From assembly GCF_000275865.1 (NCBI RefSeq), contig NZ_CM001555.1, forward strand, positions 827,706 through 891,705: 64,000 nt of DNA, in the 5' to 3' direction. Shown here piece after piece: positions 1,786 through 38,262 of this stretch. Source of the DNA: Methanofollis liminatans DSM 4140 (GTDB lineage Archaea > Halobacteriota > Methanomicrobia > Methanomicrobiales > Methanofollaceae). Positions within the stretch are counted from its first letter, which is position 1; the number at the start of each line of letters is the position of its first letter. A program made the translations under genes and the position numbers. A model generated the notes under the pieces. It did no database searches, had not been told where the DNA came from, and saw only the letters and a list, made by a program, of their open reading frames with translations.

Positions 1786-4374
1786 ATGTCATCCTCGCAT
1801 ACAATCCCAAAAAACTATGACTTCCGGGAAGTGGAGGACCGGTGGCAGCGCACCTGGCGCGACGAGGACAATTACTTCGACCCGTCTTCTCCAAAACCGC
1901 AGTTCGTCATCGATACGCCCCCGCCCTACCCCACGGGCAACTTCCATATCGGCAACGCCCTCAACTGGTGTTATATCGACTTCATCGCGCGCTACAAGCG
2001 GATGTGCGGCTATAACGTCATGTTCCCGCAGGGCTGGGACTGCCACGGCCTCCCCACCGAGGTCAAGGTGGAGGAGATCCACGGGATCACGAAAAACGAC
2101 GTCTCCCGCGAGGAATTCAGGCAGATGTGCCGGGACCTCACCATCGGCAATATCGAGAAGATGCGCGCCACCCTCCGCCGGTGCGGCTTCTCGACCGACT
2201 GGAGCCACGAGTACATCACGATGCTCCCTGAATACTACCGCAAGACGCAGCTCTCCTTTTTACGGATGCTCAATGCGGGCTATATCTACCAGAGCGAACA
2301 CCCGGTGAACTTCTGCACCCGTTGCGAGACGGCGATCGCCTTTGCCGAGGTCAGCTACGAGCCCAGGGAGACGAAGCTCAACTTCTTCGACTTCGACGGC
2401 GTCGAGATCGCCACCACGCGCCCCGAGCTCCTCGCGGCCTGCGTCGCCGTCGCCGTCCACCCCGAAGACGAACGCTACCGTCCCCTCGCCGGGAAACACC
2501 TGAAGGTTCCCCTCTTCGGCCACGACGTTCCGGTGCTGCAGGACGGGGCCGTCGACCCCTCCTTCGGGTCGGGCGCCGTGATGATCTGCACCTTCGGCGA
2601 CAAGCAGGACGTCCACTGGTGGAAGGAGTACGACCTTCCCTTGAGAAAGGCGATCGACCGGGCAGGGCGGATGACGGCGCTCTGCGGCCGGTACCAGGGG
2701 ATGAACGCGAAGGAGTGCCGGGAAGCGATCCTCGCCGATATGGAGAAGGCCGGGATCCTGCGGAGGCAGGAGACGATCGAGCAGCGCGTCGGCACCTGCT
2801 GGCGGTGCAAGACCCCGATCGAGATCCTCTCCGAGCGGCAGTGGTTCATCAGGGTGAAATCCGACGAGATCCTGGAGGCAGCGCACCAGGTCTCCTGGTA
2901 CCCCGAGCACATGCGCACCAGGCTGGAGAACTGGGCCGGGCAGATGGAATGGGACTGGTGCATATCCCGCCAGCGGATCTTTGCGACCCCGATTCCGGTC
3001 TGGTCCTGCGCGCAGTGCGGCGCAATCGTGACGCCTGACGAGGCCGACCTCCCGGTCGACCCGACGACCGAGCGCCCGAAGCGCCCCTGTCCGCAGTGCG
3101 GCTGCGAGGAGTTCGTGGCCGAGCACGACGTCCTGGACACCTGGATGGACTCTTCGATCTCGGTGCTGAACATCACCGGCTGGGACGGCAGCGGCACCCC
3201 GCCGATCTTCCCGGCGCAGATCCGGCCGCAGGGCCACGATATCATCAGGACCTGGGCCTTCTACACGATCCTGCGCTCGGTCGCCCTCACCGGCCAGAAA
3301 CCGTGGGACTCGATCCTGGTCAACGGCATGGTGCTCGGCGAGGACGGCTTCAAGATGTCCAAGAGCCGGAACAACATCATCGCCCCGGAGACCGTGGTCG
3401 TCGAGTACGGCGCCGACGCCTTCAGGCAGTGGGGGGCGATGGGGGCGGCCACCGGCCAGGACATCATGTTCAACTGGAACGACGTGGTCGCCGCCTCCCG
3501 GTTCCAGACGAAGATGTGGAATATCGTCCGCTTCGTGCTCACCCAGATCGAGCGCGAGCCGGTTGAAGACGGCCCGGTCACCGCCGTGCTCGACCGCTGG
3601 CTCCTTGCAAAACTCTCAGAGACCGTTGCCGAGGTGACGAACGCCCTCGATACCTACCAGTTCGACCAGGGGCTGCGGGCGATCCGTGACTTCACCAGGA
3701 ACATCCTTGCCGACGACTACATCGAGCTCGTGAAAGGGCGGCTCTACTCAGACGACGCCGAGCGCGCCAGCGCCTGCCGCGCCCTGACCACCACCCTCGA
3801 CGCCCTCTGCCGCCTCCTGGCCCCCTATGTGCCGCACTTCGCCGAGGAGTGCTGGGCGCAGTTCAGAGAGGGGAGCGTGCTCGTCCAGCCCTGGCCGGCA
3901 TTTTCCTGCGAGGACGAGGAGGCCGAGCGTATTGGCGACCGCCTTGTCTCCCTCACCGCCGAGCTCCGCCGGTACAAGCACGACCTCGGGCTTGCCCTGA
4001 ACGCCCCCTTCGGTAACCTCGCCATCTACGCCCCCGAAAAGGTCGATGACGCCGGAGACGTTGCCCGGGCCCTGAACGCCGCCATCGCCTGGCGGACCGG
4101 GGAGCCGCGGCTTGAAAAGGTGCCCGCGGGCGTGGAGTTCAACATGGCGGTGATCGGTCCCGCGCTCCGCAAGGGGGCAAAGGGCTTCATGCAGGCCGTC
4201 GAAGCCCTGCCGGCCGACCAGCTCCAGAACCCGCCGGCGACGGTCATCGTGGACGGCGCCGAGGTCGCCGTACCCGAAAACGCCTTCACCCCGAAGTTCG
4301 CCTACCAGGTGGAGGGCGAGGCGGTGGACGTCCTCACGATCGGCGAGGTCACCGTCACCCTGCGGCGGGCCTGA
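1786..4374 (+). CDS. valS: Valyl-tRNA synthetase
   Basis: Charges tRNA-Val with valine in the cytoplasm and is a class Ia synthetase. The class I signatures are clear: HIGN about 54 residues in, within [11 protein letters not shown], and KMSKS near residue 523 (FKMSKSRNN). Between them lies the CP1 editing domain, with several cysteine pairs (CTRC, CWRC, CAQC, CPQCGC) typical of the zinc-bearing archaeal form. The anticodon-binding helical domain and a C-terminal extension complete about 862 residues, normal for archaeal ValRS. The frame could start at 1780, but the Shine-Dalgarno AGGA is correctly spaced only for the ATG at 1786. Confidence 0.97.
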
Positions 4375-31408: not shown

Positions 31409-33841
31409 ATGCAGAAAGATCAGATTGAAGTAACGGTGAAGGAGGCCTATCACGAGGATGCCGGTCGGGGGATCGCACGCCTCGGCATGGACGTGATGAA
31501 GGCCCTCAACCTCGTTTCCGGCGATGTGATCGAGATCCAGGGCAAGCAGAAGGCCGCGGCCATCGTCTGGCCCGGCTATCCCGAGGACATCGGGAAAGGC
31601 ATCATCAGGATCGACGGCAACATCCGCGGCAACGCTCATACCGGCATCGACGATACCGTCAAAATCCGGAAGGTGGAGGCAGGTTACGGCCAGAAGGTCG
31701 TCTTCCAGCCGACCCAGCCGATCCGTCTCGTCGGCGGCGAACAGTACCTCAAACGGCTGATGAACGGCAGGCCGGTCGTCGAGGGGCAGACCTTCAGGAT
31801 CAATGTCCTGGGCAACCCCCTGACCTTCGTCGTCGCCAAGGTCTCGCCCCGGGGGATCGCGATCATCAACGACTCGACCGAGATCGAGCTGAAGGAGACG
31901 CCGTACAAGCCTGAGGAAGGGAAGCGCAAGGAGGTCTCCGACGTCCACTACGAGGACATCGGCGGCCTCGGCCGCGAGCTCGACATGGTCAGGGAGATGA
32001 TCGAACTCCCGCTCAGGCACCCCGAGATCTTCGAGCGCCTCGGGATCGAGCCCCCGAAGGGCGTGCTCCTCTACGGCCCGCCAGGCACGGGCAAGACCCT
32101 GATCGCGAAGGCTGTCGCAAACGAGGTGGATGCCAACTTCATCTCCATCTCGGGCCCCGAGATCATGGGCAAGTACTATGGCGAGTCAGAGGAGCGGCTG
32201 CGCGAGGTCTTTGAAAAAGCGCAGGAGAACGCCCCGACGATCGTCTTCATCGACGAGATCGACTCGATCGCCCCCAAGCGCGAGGAGACGAAGGGCGAGG
32301 TGGAGCGGCGGGTCGTCGCCCAGCTCCTCTCCTTGATGGACGGGCTCAAGACCAGGGGACAGGTCGTCGTCATCGCGGCGACGAACATCCCCGACGCCAT
32401 CGACCCGGCCCTGCGCCGGGGCGGGCGGTTCGACCGCGAGATCGAGATCGGCATCCCCGACCGGAAGGGGCGGCACGAGATCTTCCAGGTGCACACCCGC
32501 GGCGTTCCCCTTGCGGAGAGCGTCGACCTCCAGCATCTCGCCGACGTGACCCACGGCTTCGTCGGCGCCGACATCTCACTCCTGGTAAAGGAGGCGGCGA
32601 TGCACGCCCTCCGGCAGGTGATCCCGAAGATCAAGATCGAGGAGGAGATCCCGGCCGAACTGATCGAGAAACTGCGGGTCACGGCCGAGGACTTCGACGA
32701 GGCCAGAAAGCATGTCGAGCCCTCGGCGATGCGCGAGGTGCTCGTCGAGGTGCCGAACGTCTCCTGGGAGGACGTCGGCGGGCTTGAAGACGTGAAGGCC
32801 GAACTCACCGAGGCGGTGGAATGGCCGCTGAAGTACCCTGAGATCTTTGCCCGGATGCAGACCAAACCCCCGAAGGGGATCCTCCTCTTCGGCCCGCCCG
32901 GAACAGGAAAGACCCTGCTCGCCAAAGCGACGGCGAACGAGAGCGAGTGCAACTTCATCTCGGTAAAGGGGCCTGAGCTCCTCTCGAAGTGGGTCGGCGA
33001 ATCTGAAAAGGGCGTGCGCGAGATCTTCCGCAAGGCGCGGCAGGCGTCCCCGTCGATCATCTTCTTCGATGAGATCGATGCCCTCGTGCCAAAGCGCGGC
33101 TCGTATGCCGACTCCTCGCACGTGACCGAGAGCGTCGTCTCCCAGCTCCTCACTGAGCTCGACGGGCTGGAGGAGCTCAAAAGCGTCATGGTCCTCGGCG
33201 CCACAAACCGCCCTGACATGCTCGACGACGCCCTCCTGCGCCCGGGCCGCCTCGACCGGATCGTCTATGTCCCCCCGCCCGACCTGGAGAGCCGGAAGAA
33301 GATCTTCGAGGTCTACCTGAAGGGCACCGAGGAGATGATGGCATCTGACGTCGACATCGACGATCTCGTCGCCCGGAGCGACGGCTACGTCGGCGCCGAC
33401 ATCGAAGCGGTCGTCAGGGAGGCGAAACTCGCGGCGATGCGGGAGTTCATCGCGGCGATGAAGGACAAGACTGCCGAGGAGCGCACCGATGCCATCGGCA
33501 ACGTCAGGGTCACGAAGAAGCACTTCGACACCGCCTTTGGAAAGGTGAAGGGCTCGCTCTCGCCTGAGAGCCTCGAAGAGTTCGAGCGGCTCTCCTGGGA
33601 GATCCTCTACTCCCACGAACAGCGTTCGGTCCTCGAAAAGGCCGCCGCCCTTGTTAAACGGGCCGGACTTGCGGCAGGGAAAGGCGGCGATGAGGTCGCA
33701 ACCCTCGCAGGGGACCTCAGGAAGGCGGTCTACGCGAGAACAAAAGATCTCGCCGGGATCAGGGCCCTCTCAGAAAAACTTGAAGTCGCGCTCGAGAAGA
33801 AGAGGCCTGCAACCATTCCCGCGCCCATGCACGGGAGCTGA
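31409..33841 (+). CDS. cdc48: CDC48/p97 family AAA+ ATPase
   Basis: This 810-residue archaeal unfoldase feeds substrates to the proteasome. The N-terminal double-psi barrel and Cdc48_2 domains occupy about 1-185. D1 has Walker A GPPGTGKT at 223-230 and Walker [16 protein letters not shown]2 has Walker A GPPGTGKT at 495-502 and Walker [15 protein letters not shown], with arginine-finger regions [12 protein letters not shown] and [11 protein letters not shown]. There is no C-terminal HbYX tail. Its promoter carries the same box as the hsr1-hsp20 operon 23 kb away, implying heat-shock control. Confidence 0.97.
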
Positions 33842-34877: not shown

Positions 34878-35795
34878 ATGTCTGCGAATGTTTCCGTATC
34901 TGTCCCTGCCGATGTCCCTGACGAGGTAAGGGAGACCTATATCGATAACTTTTCGACCATCACCAAGGGAACGGGCCGCCTCATGCTCTTTGCCGGCGAC
35001 CAGAAGATCGAACACCTCAACGACGATTTCTACGGCGACGGGATCCACCAGGACGATGCCGAACCCGAGCACCTCTTCAGGATCGCAAGCCAGGGGCGCA
35101 TCGGCGTCTTTGCGACCCAGATCGGGCTGGTCGCCCGGTACGGCCGGGACTATCCCGAGGTGCCGTACCTCGTCAAACTCAACTCCAAGACGCACCTGGT
35201 CAAGACCGCCCAGAAAGACCCGGCCAGCCCGATGATCACCACGGTGGCCCAGGTGGTCGCCCTCAGGAACCAGACCGGGCTGAAGATCGCCGCTGTCGGC
35301 TACACGATCTATCTCGGGTCGGAGTTCGAGGCCCAGATGCTCGCCGAGGCCGCACAGGCGGTGCTTGAGGCGCACCAGCACGGTCTTCTCACGGTGCTCT
35401 GGATCTACCCCCGCGGTGCGGCGGTCAAGGACGAGAAGGACCCGCACCTGATCGCCGGGGCGACCGGTGTCGCCGCATGTCTCGGTTCGGACTTCGTCAA
35501 GGTCAATGCCCCGAAGAAAGAGGGGACGGCGTCGGCTGTCCTCCTCAAAGAAGCCACCCTCGCCGCAGGGCGGACAAAAGTCGTCTGCGCCGGCGGGTCG
35601 AGCGTCGATGAAGCGAAATTCCTCAAGGAACTCTACGAGCAGATCCACACCGGCGGCTGCTCCGGGAACGCCACCGGGAGAAACATCCACCAGAAGTCCC
35701 TCGAGGAAGCGGTGCGGATGTGCAATGCGATCTCGGCGATCACCATCGATGGTGCGTCCCTTGAGGATGCCCTGGCCCTTCTGAAGGGCAACTGA
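34878..35795 (+). CDS. Archaeal class I (DhnA/DeoC-type) aldolase
   Basis: This 305-residue TIM-barrel Schiff-base aldolase is of the archaeal DhnA/LacD group. Visible family segments are MLFAGDQKIEHLNDDFYG, VPYLVKLNSKTHL, IAAVGYTIYLGSEFEAQML, LWIYPRGAAVKDEKDPHLIA, DFVKVNAPK (probable Schiff-base lysine) and KVVCAGGSS. The family acts on fructose-1,6-bisphosphate or related keto sugars; in some methanogens relatives serve aromatic amino-acid or methylglyoxal-linked reactions. Position directly before FBPase supports a gluconeogenic role. A paralogue elsewhere may be the main FBP aldolase. Confidence 0.88.
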   Translation: MSANVSVSVPADVPDEVRETYIDNFSTITKGTGRLMLFAGDQKIEHLNDDFYGDGIHQDDAEPEHLFRIASQGRIGVFATQIGLVARYGRDYPEVPYLVKLNSKTHLVKTAQKDPASPMITTVAQVVALRNQTGLKIAAVGYTIYLGSEFEAQMLAEAAQAVLEAHQHGLLTVLWIYPRGAAVKDEKDPHLIAGATGVAACLGSDFVKVNAPKKEGTASAVLLKEATLAAGRTKVVCAGGSSVDEAKFLKELYEQIHTGGCSGNATGRNIHQKSLEEAVRMCNAISAITIDGASLEDALALLKGN

Positions 35796-35870: not shown

Positions 35871-36776
35871 ATGACGACGTTGCATGAGTATCTGGAGTCT
35901 GCAGGCTGCGAAACCGACCTCTGCACACTGATAGAATTGATCGCAGAGCAGGCGCAGCCGATCAGGGAGGCGTTCATCACCCATCAGGCATATGCCGAAT
36001 CCGAGAACGTCTATGGCGAGCGGCAGGCTGCGATGGACACCTGGTCTGACGAACTGATCACCCGCGTCCTCGGGGAGTCCGGGCTGGTGCGCGCACTCTC
36101 GTCAGAGGAGCAGGACGAGGTCAGGACATTTCCCGGGGCGAAGGCCGAGTATGCCGTGGTGATGGACCCGATGGACGGGTCGTCCCTGATCCAGACGAAC
36201 CTCGCCGTCGGGACGATCGTCGGCATCTTCGGCGGCGGCGACGTCCTCCAGCCCGGGCGGGACCTGAAGGCGGCGCTCTATATGCTCTACGGCCCGATGA
36301 CCACCCTCACCCTGACGGTGGGGAAGGGCGTCTGCATCTTTGCGATGGACCACGGCGGCGTCTACCGCCTTCTCGAACGGGACGTGCGGATCCCTGACGG
36401 AAACCTCTACGGCACCGGCGGCGGGAGGCCTGACTGGATCGATCAGCACGCCGCCTTCATCACCGCCGTCGAGGCGGACGGGGCAAAACTCCGGTACACC
36501 GGGTCCTATGTTGCCGATTTCCACCAGATCCTCAAATACGGCGGGATCTATTGTTACCCGGCCCTGAAGGGAAAACCGAAGGGAAAACTCAGGCTCCTGT
36601 ACGAGGCGATCCCGGTCGGCTTTATCGCGGCGCAGGCCGGCGGTGCGATCACTGATGGCCATATTGACCTCCTCGACCTCAAACCGGCAGAACCGCACCA
36701 GCGCACGCCTATCTATGTCGGGTCGATGAACATGATCAGCCTGGTGAAGGAGACGTTCGAACGGTCGCGGGTATGA
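35871..36776 (+). CDS. fbp: Class I fructose-1,6-bisphosphatase
   Basis: Hydrolyses fructose-1,6-bisphosphate to fructose-6-phosphate in gluconeogenesis. This is the bacterial/eukaryotic class I type, with 301 residues: EEQDEVRTF early, the metal-site motif DPMDGSS at residues 99-105, then LYGTGGGRPDWIDQHAAFI, YTGSYVADFHQIL and LKGKPKGKLRLLYEAIPVGF with AGGAITDG near the C-terminus. Most archaea use the unrelated FBP aldolase/phosphatase, so a class I enzyme is notable. It ends in a 4-bp ATGA overlap with the next gene, which is a degenerate relative of that other family. Confidence 0.93.
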   Translation: MTTLHEYLESAGCETDLCTLIELIAEQAQPIREAFITHQAYAESENVYGERQAAMDTWSDELITRVLGESGLVRALSSEEQDEVRTFPGAKAEYAVVMDPMDGSSLIQTNLAVGTIVGIFGGGDVLQPGRDLKAALYMLYGPMTTLTLTVGKGVCIFAMDHGGVYRLLERDVRIPDGNLYGTGGGRPDWIDQHAAFITAVEADGAKLRYTGSYVADFHQILKYGGIYCYPALKGKPKGKLRLLYEAIPVGFIAAQAGGAITDGHIDLLDLKPAEPHQRTPIYVGSMNMISLVKETFERSRV

Positions 36777-37555
36777 TCACTCTCACGGTCCTGACGGCCG
36801 ACTTCGGCGGCTTCCCTGCAGGGCTGCGGGCCCACCCGCTCCTCGTGGAGAAAGCGGCAAAACTGCTCAGGGCCGAGCACGGTAAGCGGATCATCGACTC
36901 GTTCACCACCAGGGCGGGAGGGAGACTGGCCTCTGTGTTCACCTCAGCAGGGGAGGATGGGGCTGTTTGTGTCGTTGACGACCTCTGTGCGGCATGCAGG
37001 ATCGTTTCAGGTGAGATCGGATTGTCCGGGAGCGGCGGTGCCGAAACGGTCAGCCTCACCTTTGAAGAGCGGCCCGGAGAGGCGGTGCTGGTCTTCCTCT
37101 CCGCCGGTGCCGCCCCGAGCGTCTGGGGCATGCCCCTCTGCCGGATCTTTGCCGACCCCTTCACCTCTCCGGCTCTGGTCAGGGAACCCCTGATGTGCGG
37201 GGGGTTTTCGTTCACCTGCGACGACGGGTCGGTCTTTTCCACCCCCGCGGAGATCTGCGGTCTCCTTCGTCACCTCGAAGGCGGGCGCCTTCCGGTCAGG
37301 GTCGAACGGCAGGATCGCCTGCCGGCGGCGGCAGCCGGCCGCGGCCCTGACCCGGCGCTCATCGTCAGGGCAGGGAAAGGGCTGCCGGTCGTCGGGGAGG
37401 CCATCACCGCCGCGGCCGGAAATGGTCTCATGGCGGTCAGCCTCTGCGATATGACGCCGGTCCGTCCGAAAACGGCGTGCCTGGGCTTCAGTATCCATGA
37501 CGGCATGCTCATCGGGCCTGCCGACCTCTATGACGATCCGGTCTTTGGCCGCTGA
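36773..37555 (+). CDS. Degenerate FBP aldolase/phosphatase (class V FBPase) homologue
   Basis: This 260-residue protein clearly derives from the archaeal bifunctional FBP aldolase/phosphatase (about 365-390 residues). Matches include TADFGG at the start, LTFEERPGEAVLVFLSAG, WGMPLCRIFADPF, ALIVRAGKGLPVVGEAI and LGFSIHDGMLIGPADLYDDP. Catalytic segments are altered: the usual GDD after the second strand is GGR, the ADKTEP metal site is SAGAAP, and the KYVGKDD block with the aldolase Tyr/Lys is shortened to GRGPD. The roughly 100-residue C-terminus is missing. It is translationally coupled to class I FBPase and is probably non-catalytic, perhaps a partner or regulator. Confidence 0.85.
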   Translation: MITLTVLTADFGGFPAGLRAHPLLVEKAAKLLRAEHGKRIIDSFTTRAGGRLASVFTSAGEDGAVCVVDDLCAACRIVSGEIGLSGSGGAETVSLTFEERPGEAVLVFLSAGAAPSVWGMPLCRIFADPFTSPALVREPLMCGGFSFTCDDGSVFSTPAEICGLLRHLEGGRLPVRVERQDRLPAAAAGRGPDPALIVRAGKGLPVVGEAITAAAGNGLMAVSLCDMTPVRPKTACLGFSIHDGMLIGPADLYDDPVFGR

Positions 37556-37676: not shown

Positions 37677-37913
37677 ATGGTCAACAGTATTGTTCTGCCG
37701 GTCAAAAAGGTATATTCTCTTGTTGATTCCAGGATTAATGTTGAAATCAAGGACGAGGGAAGGAAGTTGCAGGGCAGGCTTGTTGCGGTGGACGAACACC
37801 TGAACCTGCATATGGAAGAGACGATCGAGTACACCGGCGAGCAGCGCGGGCGCAGCCTTGGCACGGTCGTTATCAGAGGGAACAATATTCTGACGATCTC
37901 GCCTCTTGTCTGA
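37677..37913 (+). CDS. LSm (Sm-like) RNA-binding protein
   Basis: This 78-residue archaeal Sm-fold protein forms RNA-binding rings that act in RNA processing and stability. The Sm1 motif is visible in GRLVAVDEHLNLHMEET and Sm2 in LGTVVIRGNNILTISP, with the conserved N in HLN and the RGNN of the uridine-binding site. Length is standard. No strong Shine-Dalgarno precedes the ATG. It is followed by a winged-helix/Cys protein gene starting within 8 bp of its stop, probably cotranscribed. Confidence 0.93.
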   Translation: MVNSIVLPVKKVYSLVDSRINVEIKDEGRKLQGRLVAVDEHLNLHMEETIEYTGEQRGRSLGTVVIRGNNILTISPLV

Positions 37914-37920
37914 TAGGATT

Positions 37921-38262
37921 ATGCCGTCCGTTGAAGACGAAGCCCTGAAGATCATCCAGTCAAGGCCCGAGGGGGTTCTCCAGAGCGAGCTCTGGAAACT
38001 CCTCGACATCGACAGCCGGAAGTGCTCGCGCGTCGTTAAGAAATTATTCGATGCCGGCCTCATCGACCGGATCGAGTTCAGGGAAGAGGGCATCAAGACG
38101 TATCAGCTGAAGGCGCGGCAGCAGGCGGTCGACCCGGCGCTCCTGATGGCCGGCGAAGAGCTGATCCCCTGCATCGCCTGCGAACTCGACTGCATCGTGG
38201 AGCAGTGCCCTCTGCTCCTTGACTGGATGTACGAGCTCGCAATAAACGAGGTCAACGAGTAG
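37921..38262 (+). CDS. Winged-helix protein with four-cysteine C-terminal motif (RPC34/TFE-beta-like?)
   Basis: This protein of about 113 residues has a winged helix at 5-70 (PEGVLQSELWKLLDIDSRKC, then SRVVKKLFDAGLIDR and wing EEGIKTYQLK) and a compact C-terminal motif CIACELDCIVEQC (Cx2Cx3Cx4C) followed by PLLLDWM. A winged helix plus an iron-sulfur cysteine cluster ending near a conserved Trp is the arrangement of TFE-beta/RPC34 transcription factors, though MarR/Lrp-like annotation is also possible. The ATG at 37921 has AGGA close upstream; a TTG at 37906 overlaps LSm. Confidence 0.7.
   Translation: MPSVEDEALKIIQSRPEGVLQSELWKLLDIDSRKCSRVVKKLFDAGLIDRIEFREEGIKTYQLKARQQAVDPALLMAGEELIPCIACELDCIVEQCPLLLDWMYELAINEVNE

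Follow-up and report, generated by a model that had tools for sequence, protein, structure and literature searches.

The archaeal fructose-1,6-bisphosphate (FBP) aldolase/phosphatase (FBPA/P; Pfam PF01950, FBPase_3), which yields fructose-6-phosphate, has been proposed as an ancestral gluconeogenic enzyme, and the replacement of such an enzyme by an unrelated one, together with the fate of the old gene, is rarely visible. A described case of an inactive relative serving an enzyme of another family is HisZ, a paralogue of histidyl-tRNA synthetase, which binds and activates HisG, the short-form ATP phosphoribosyltransferase (PMC10795190).

This study focused on a locus within a 64,000 nt window of the Methanofollis liminatans DSM 4140 chromosome, where a degenerate FBPA/P gene directly follows the gene for a class I fructose-1,6-bisphosphatase (FBPase, PF00316). 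Its product resembles FBPA/P (1umg, 3r1m, 3t2b-g) in whole-length homology, predicted fold, and the chromosomal slot that its gene shares with the enzymes of Methanoculleus and Methanolinea, but it differs in lacking the signature catalytic residues, part of the C-terminus, and several internal blocks. By analogy with HisZ, an inactive relative of one family would have been turned into a regulatory subunit of another family's enzyme. The families involved are unrelated to those of the HisZ system, however, and while the binding of HisZ to HisG is proven, that of the pseudoenzyme to FBPase is presumed. A further difference is that FBPA/P, the source enzyme, carried out the reaction of its new partner, which histidyl-tRNA synthetase did not.

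Table 1. Features of the locus and its landmarks, with nucleotide positions in the window.
Feature	Position	Strand	Basis
Cdc48/VCP ATPase, marking the ancestral FBPA/P slot on its upstream side	31409..33841	+	Pfam; Methanoculleus and Methanolinea loci
DhnA-type class I aldolase, which opens the ald-fbp-pseudoenzyme cluster	34878..35795	+	PF01791; NCBIfam PRK06852
Class I fructose-1,6-bisphosphatase, 301 aa, catalytic residues intact	35871..36776	+	PF00316 and PF18913; alignment to pig FBPase
ATGA start/stop overlap of the FBPase and pseudoenzyme genes	36773..36776	+	Sequence
Predicted FBPA/P-derived pseudoenzyme, 260 aa (ATG at 36773, stop ending at 37555)	36773..37555	+	Pfam PF01950; AlphaFold2 model; Foldseek; omega
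Lost GDD metal motif, reads GGR	36917..36925	+	Alignment
Lost ADKTEP block, reads SAGAAP	37100..37117	+	Alignment
YVGKDD remnant, reads G-P-D; Tyr229 deleted, Lys232 replaced by Gly	37343..37351	+	Alignment
C-terminal segment CLGF..GMLIGPADLYDDP, most conserved part in all pseudoenzymes	37478..37540	+	Invariant columns
LSm protein, downstream landmark	37677 onward, listed to 37904	+	PF01423, 67 bits; synteny
Winged-helix HTH protein, downstream landmark	37906..38262	+	Pfam B-block_TFIIIC/MarR-like; synteny

Homology and Predicted Fold

The protein matched PF01950 at 93.5 bits (E 1.9e-26), and its best PDB relatives by sequence were 3t2b and 1umg (phmmer, E 7e-27 to 1e-22). Against the NCBIfam equivalog FBP_aldo_phos it scored 92.3 bits, far short of the cut-off of 520 for the functional enzyme. 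These matches bear out an earlier, sequence-only reading of the locus, according to which the protein aligns along most of archaeal FBPA/P. That reading also had the last 100 residues missing, which proved to be an overestimate: the profile match ends at position 315 of 361, a C-terminal loss of about 46 profile positions, and the remaining shortening (260 aa, against about 365 aa in the canonical enzyme) is due to internal deletions. A profile search of the genome found no second or canonical FBPA/P, and this gene is its sole PF01950 member.

An AlphaFold2 model from a 44-sequence alignment had a mean pLDDT of 94.3 and a pTM of 0.93, and its strong Foldseek matches in the PDB were exclusively seven FBPA/P entries (1umg/3r1m/3t2b-g; TMq 0.86-0.91), a match that is partly expected, as the input alignments contained canonical homologues. 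The model of a 215 aa form from Methanocorpusculum, the shortest length seen, reached a pLDDT of 92.2 and a TMq of 0.77-0.87 to FBPA/P; according to these predictions, the shortened sequences stay compatible with a compact fold. In sequence homology and in predicted fold, the protein belongs to the PF01950 family. The best-conserved regions of the pseudoenzymes are the N-terminal strand (GG...HP), D42, PVSLCD, and LGF...L.GP.DL.D.P, the last of these within the C-terminal segment, where F239, L246, G248, P249, D251, D254, and P256 are invariant. The short forms (L061-L072, L088) are without the whole IFADPF...LL block; they do not form one clade in the FBPase tree, so this block may have been lost twice.

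Loss of the Active Site

Active-site positions were compared in a MAFFT local-pair alignment of the full sequence set, including canonical enzymes of the same order, and are numbered as in the T. neutrophilus enzyme by way of the PDB-chain alignment; the PDB title of 3t2g (Y229F variant) is consistent with this numbering. The catalytic roles of Y91, Q95, R265, D286, and Y348 are those assigned in the published structures. All Methanofollis copies, including that of the window, are without H18, D52, D53, D132, K133, Y229, K232, D233, Q242, R265, D286, and Y348, and Y91 and Q95 are likewise unconserved. The Mg ligands (D11, D52, D53, D132, D233, D234) are reduced to D11 and D234 in the window protein, these two being retained in 11/12 and 12/12 Methanofollis copies, respectively. 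At the Schiff-base site, Lys232 is replaced by Gly and Tyr229 is deleted in 12/12, with KYVGKDDP cut down to G-PDP in the window copy.

Loss of catalytic residues was common to 42 copies from four lineages. Of the columns invariant in the canonical enzymes, every degenerate group kept a smaller share of the catalytic ones than of the rest; in Methanofollis and Methanocalculus, for example, the shares were 12% and 34-40%, respectively. The trend is moderate (per-column Fisher p 0.003-0.13). Misalignment as the source of the missing motifs was ruled out by the full-set alignment together with the phmmer alignments to PDB chains. The absence of the GDD, ADKTEP, and KYVGKDD blocks, as first read from the sequence, was therefore confirmed, and the description of the protein as an inactive FBPA/P relative is strongly supported. 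That the open reading frame encodes a pseudoenzyme, with nearly all active-site positions lost, is well supported by these alignments.

The Adjacent Class I FBPase

The upstream gene was said to look like a functional class I FBPase, and it does: alignment to the pig enzyme showed retention of D74, E97, E98, D118, D121, R243, Y244, Y264, K274, and E280, among them the catalytic residues (E97, E98, D118, D121, E280). It departs from vertebrate-type enzymes at the AMP site, K112 and R140 (pig numbering) not being conserved in Methanofollis, which makes regulation by AMP as in vertebrates doubtful. Some other control of the enzyme is plausible. R140 occurs in hardly any relative and is mostly absent from unpaired FBPases as well, so the loss of the AMP site does not discriminate. 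The first gene of the cluster scored 532 bits against the PRK06852 aldolase model (cut-off 420). The pseudoenzyme gene does begin within the FBPase stop codon, as had been noticed, and the two genes may be translationally coupled through this overlap.

Distribution and Linkage

A survey of 150 Methanomicrobiales genomes found 74 with a long FBPA/P (>380 bits), 46 with only a degenerate copy, and 30 without any. The degenerate copies belonged to 12/12 Methanofollis genomes, 33 of family f6, and one genome of the Methanoregulaceae (G068, which we take to be Methanosphaerula palustris); by genus, the carriers other than G068 were Methanofollis, Methanocalculus, and Methanocorpusculum (the last apparently genus g16). 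Among the matches listed for 394 genomes of the phylum, no degenerate copies were found outside the order, and four low-scoring outliers from there comprised one complete enzyme, motifs included, besides truncated pieces of FBPA/P. The open reading frame was intact in every complete pseudoenzyme copy examined, across two families and G068.

Class I FBPase was present in 45/46 pseudoenzyme genomes, compared with 16/74 genomes whose FBPA/P is long (Fisher p 3.5e-18, phylogeny ignored). The single exception, G109, has a fragmented assembly with the pseudoenzyme match at a contig end. In every pseudoenzyme locus examined that reaches both genes, the class I FBPase gene immediately precedes the pseudoenzyme gene in the same orientation; like HisZ, the pseudoenzyme is thereby linked genetically to a catalytic subunit from a different family. 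Among the Methanofollis relatives, the spacing is -4 nt in 10/10 loci whose contig includes the end of the FBPase gene; elsewhere it is +5 nt in G068, +6 to +12 nt in Methanocalculus, and from -1 to +18 nt in Methanocorpusculum. The pair was together in 22/22 Methanocorpusculum loci, and the Cdc48, TPR, aldolase, LSm, and HTH genes were not found in their flanks (about 2 kb per side or to the contig end). The proposed coupling of the two proteins is thus strongly supported at the gene level, as an invariant pair in four lineages. At loci L044, L045, L049, L050, and L052-L060 both genes are in the same frame, separated by one stop and at most a few codons, and read-through of the stop there would yield a fusion protein.

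Selection

Codon models (IQ-TREE) gave omega values for the pseudoenzyme of 0.157 in Methanofollis, 0.151 in Methanocalculus, and 0.146 and 0.132 for the long and short forms of Methanocorpusculum, and omega = 1 was rejected in all four groups (2dlnL 592-802). The yardsticks were 0.054 for canonical FBPA/P, 0.068-0.106 for class I FBPase, and 0.058 for the aldolase, constraint on the pseudoenzyme being about threefold weaker than on canonical FBPA/P. Since no Methanofollis copy retains D52, D53, K133, or K232, the constraint dates from after inactivation. Purifying selection on the pseudoenzyme is genuine, though less strong than on the active enzyme. Recent decay, for which absence from all relatives would have spoken, is ruled out by the 46 genomes with the gene and by an omega of 0.13-0.16.

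History of the Locus

In Methanoculleus and Methanolinea, a canonical FBPA/P lies between Cdc48 and the LSm-HTH genes, and class I FBPase is absent. The window shares the Cdc48 and LSm-HTH landmarks with the Methanoculleus slot, and by this synteny the pseudoenzyme occupies the ancestral FBPA/P position. The suggestion that it is a relic of a replacement holds, then, insofar as it is the in-place descendant of the replaced enzyme, but not in the sense of a decaying gene, since it is under selection. The LSm gene and the winged-helix gene (SELWK motif; 37677-38262 in the window) follow the FBPA/P slot in many Methanomicrobiales, a conserved link of these genes to gluconeogenic genes and Cdc48.

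Other relatives show further arrangements. Methanoregula has an intact FBPA/P preceded by a class II aldolase and a divergent class I FBPase, and in G116 an aldolase, a class I FBPase, and an intact FBPA/P stand side by side. In genus g13 (L073, L074, L075), the gene immediately following class I FBPase is a full-length FBPA/P in which K232 is kept but D11, H18, Y91, and Y348 are replaced, a half-inactivated intermediate. In Methanomicrobiaceae, G047, and G148, class I FBPase is followed by the HTH gene and FBPA/P is absent. Taken together, the relatives read as stages: intact FBPA/P alone, intact with class I FBPase, partly inactivated, pseudoenzyme, and deleted. Replacement would have proceeded at one locus, the old gene becoming redundant, then inactivated, and finally either kept as a partner or deleted.

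The divergent FBPases of Methanoregulaceae (L076-L080, L092) form their own clade (100/100), and where gene order is known a class II FBP aldolase also stands before the intact FBPA/P, giving a cluster of three apparently redundant gluconeogenic genes. In Methanoregula SKADARSKE-2 (G112, L082), the FBPA/P (2245-3324, minus strand) is without Y229, K232, D234, H18, and Y348, with class I FBPase still nearby, and looks like a separate inactivation.

In the gene tree, where branches are long, a split supported at 100/99 leaves all pseudoenzymes together on the same side. By rpoA1, G068 and G116 are sister species, one with a pseudoenzyme and the other with an intact FBPA/P, and grouping their FBPA/P genes was rejected (AU p 0.0004). 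Long-branch attraction, transfer, or repeated inactivation are possible explanations of this conflict.

Discussion

A role as a regulatory subunit or sensor is the best inference from the evidence, and the conserved pseudoenzyme is probably a partner, with an accessory or regulatory function, of the class I FBPase that supplanted it, the partnership being deduced from conservation and linkage. That Methanomicrobiales kept a displaced enzyme as the paired regulatory or assembly (allosteric) subunit of its non-homologous displacer is a tentative proposal, at somewhat under an even chance. On the main reading, that of a probable partnership, the class I FBPase gene, in Methanofollis along with a separate aldolase, would have arrived immediately upstream of FBPA/P and taken over its reaction, and the old enzyme would have lost its active site while retaining its scaffold. 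Made in step with FBPase through the start/stop overlap, the pseudoenzyme would bind it, or an assembly holding FBPase and aldolase, and would stabilise or regulate it, possibly by way of a ligand site that the old scaffold has retained, in a mode of action much like that of HisZ on HisG. Against a partnership, the two genes may be neighbours for the sake of shared expression and not because their products form a complex. The partner would also be dispensable over evolution, because related class I FBPases persist without the gene in Methanomicrobiaceae, G047, and G148.

Other sensor or enzyme roles, taken together, seem rather unlikely. A stand-alone sensor or new binding protein on the FBPA/P scaffold, binding a sugar phosphate or other metabolite and sharing nothing but the operon with FBPase, would satisfy the demand of purifying selection for some function, adjacency being no proof of contact, and the acidic residues D42, D226, D251, and D254 do persist in nearly all copies. 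The alignment contains no new conserved polar cluster, however, most of the residues conserved among pseudoenzymes are those that the canonical enzyme conserves too, apparently for structural reasons, and the pairing with FBPase outlasts every other neighbour, all of which make this an unlikely reading. Foldseek matches of the short form to ferredoxin/ACT-like structures, including IlvH-type subunits, would also suit a sensor but were non-significant (E ~3e-3, TM ~0.24), and an ACT/IlvH-like fold was given no weight. FBPA/P-type catalysis on another sugar bisphosphate by a remodelled site is hardly to be expected: Methanofollis retains D11 (11/12) and D234, but Lys232, Tyr229, H18, D53, K133, Q242, D286, and Y348 are gone in all or nearly all copies, as are D52 and D132 in Methanofollis, and with them the metal and phosphate sites.

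The strong shortening of the protein, its outright loss in Methanomicrobiaceae, and the independent decay of the G112 lineage would fit a slowly decaying relic, kept by chance or for operon structure (for example, fbp translation or mRNA stability). Such a relic is very improbable given the strong rejection of omega = 1 in four groups, the intact reading frames, and the confident fold prediction; neutral decay is incompatible with the codon models.

A search of the open-access literature turned up no earlier mention of an FBPA/P pseudoenzyme. Pseudoenzymes are known as a kind, but the FBPA/P lineage, its link to the displacing enzyme, and the visible series of stages appear to be undescribed. 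There is also a practical side, as Pfam labels 44/44 scanned proteins, most of them dead, as 'Fructose-1,6-bisphosphatase', so that reconstructed pathways may include a dead protein as if it were the bifunctional enzyme. In related genera, a single position on the chromosome is filled by the intact enzyme, by both enzymes, by a half-inactivated form, or by a conserved dead copy, or is empty. Should the dead copy prove to regulate the enzyme that succeeded it, methanogens would have a new kind of control over gluconeogenesis, and non-orthologous replacement would gain a clear example of a displaced enzyme turned into a subunit of the one that displaced it.
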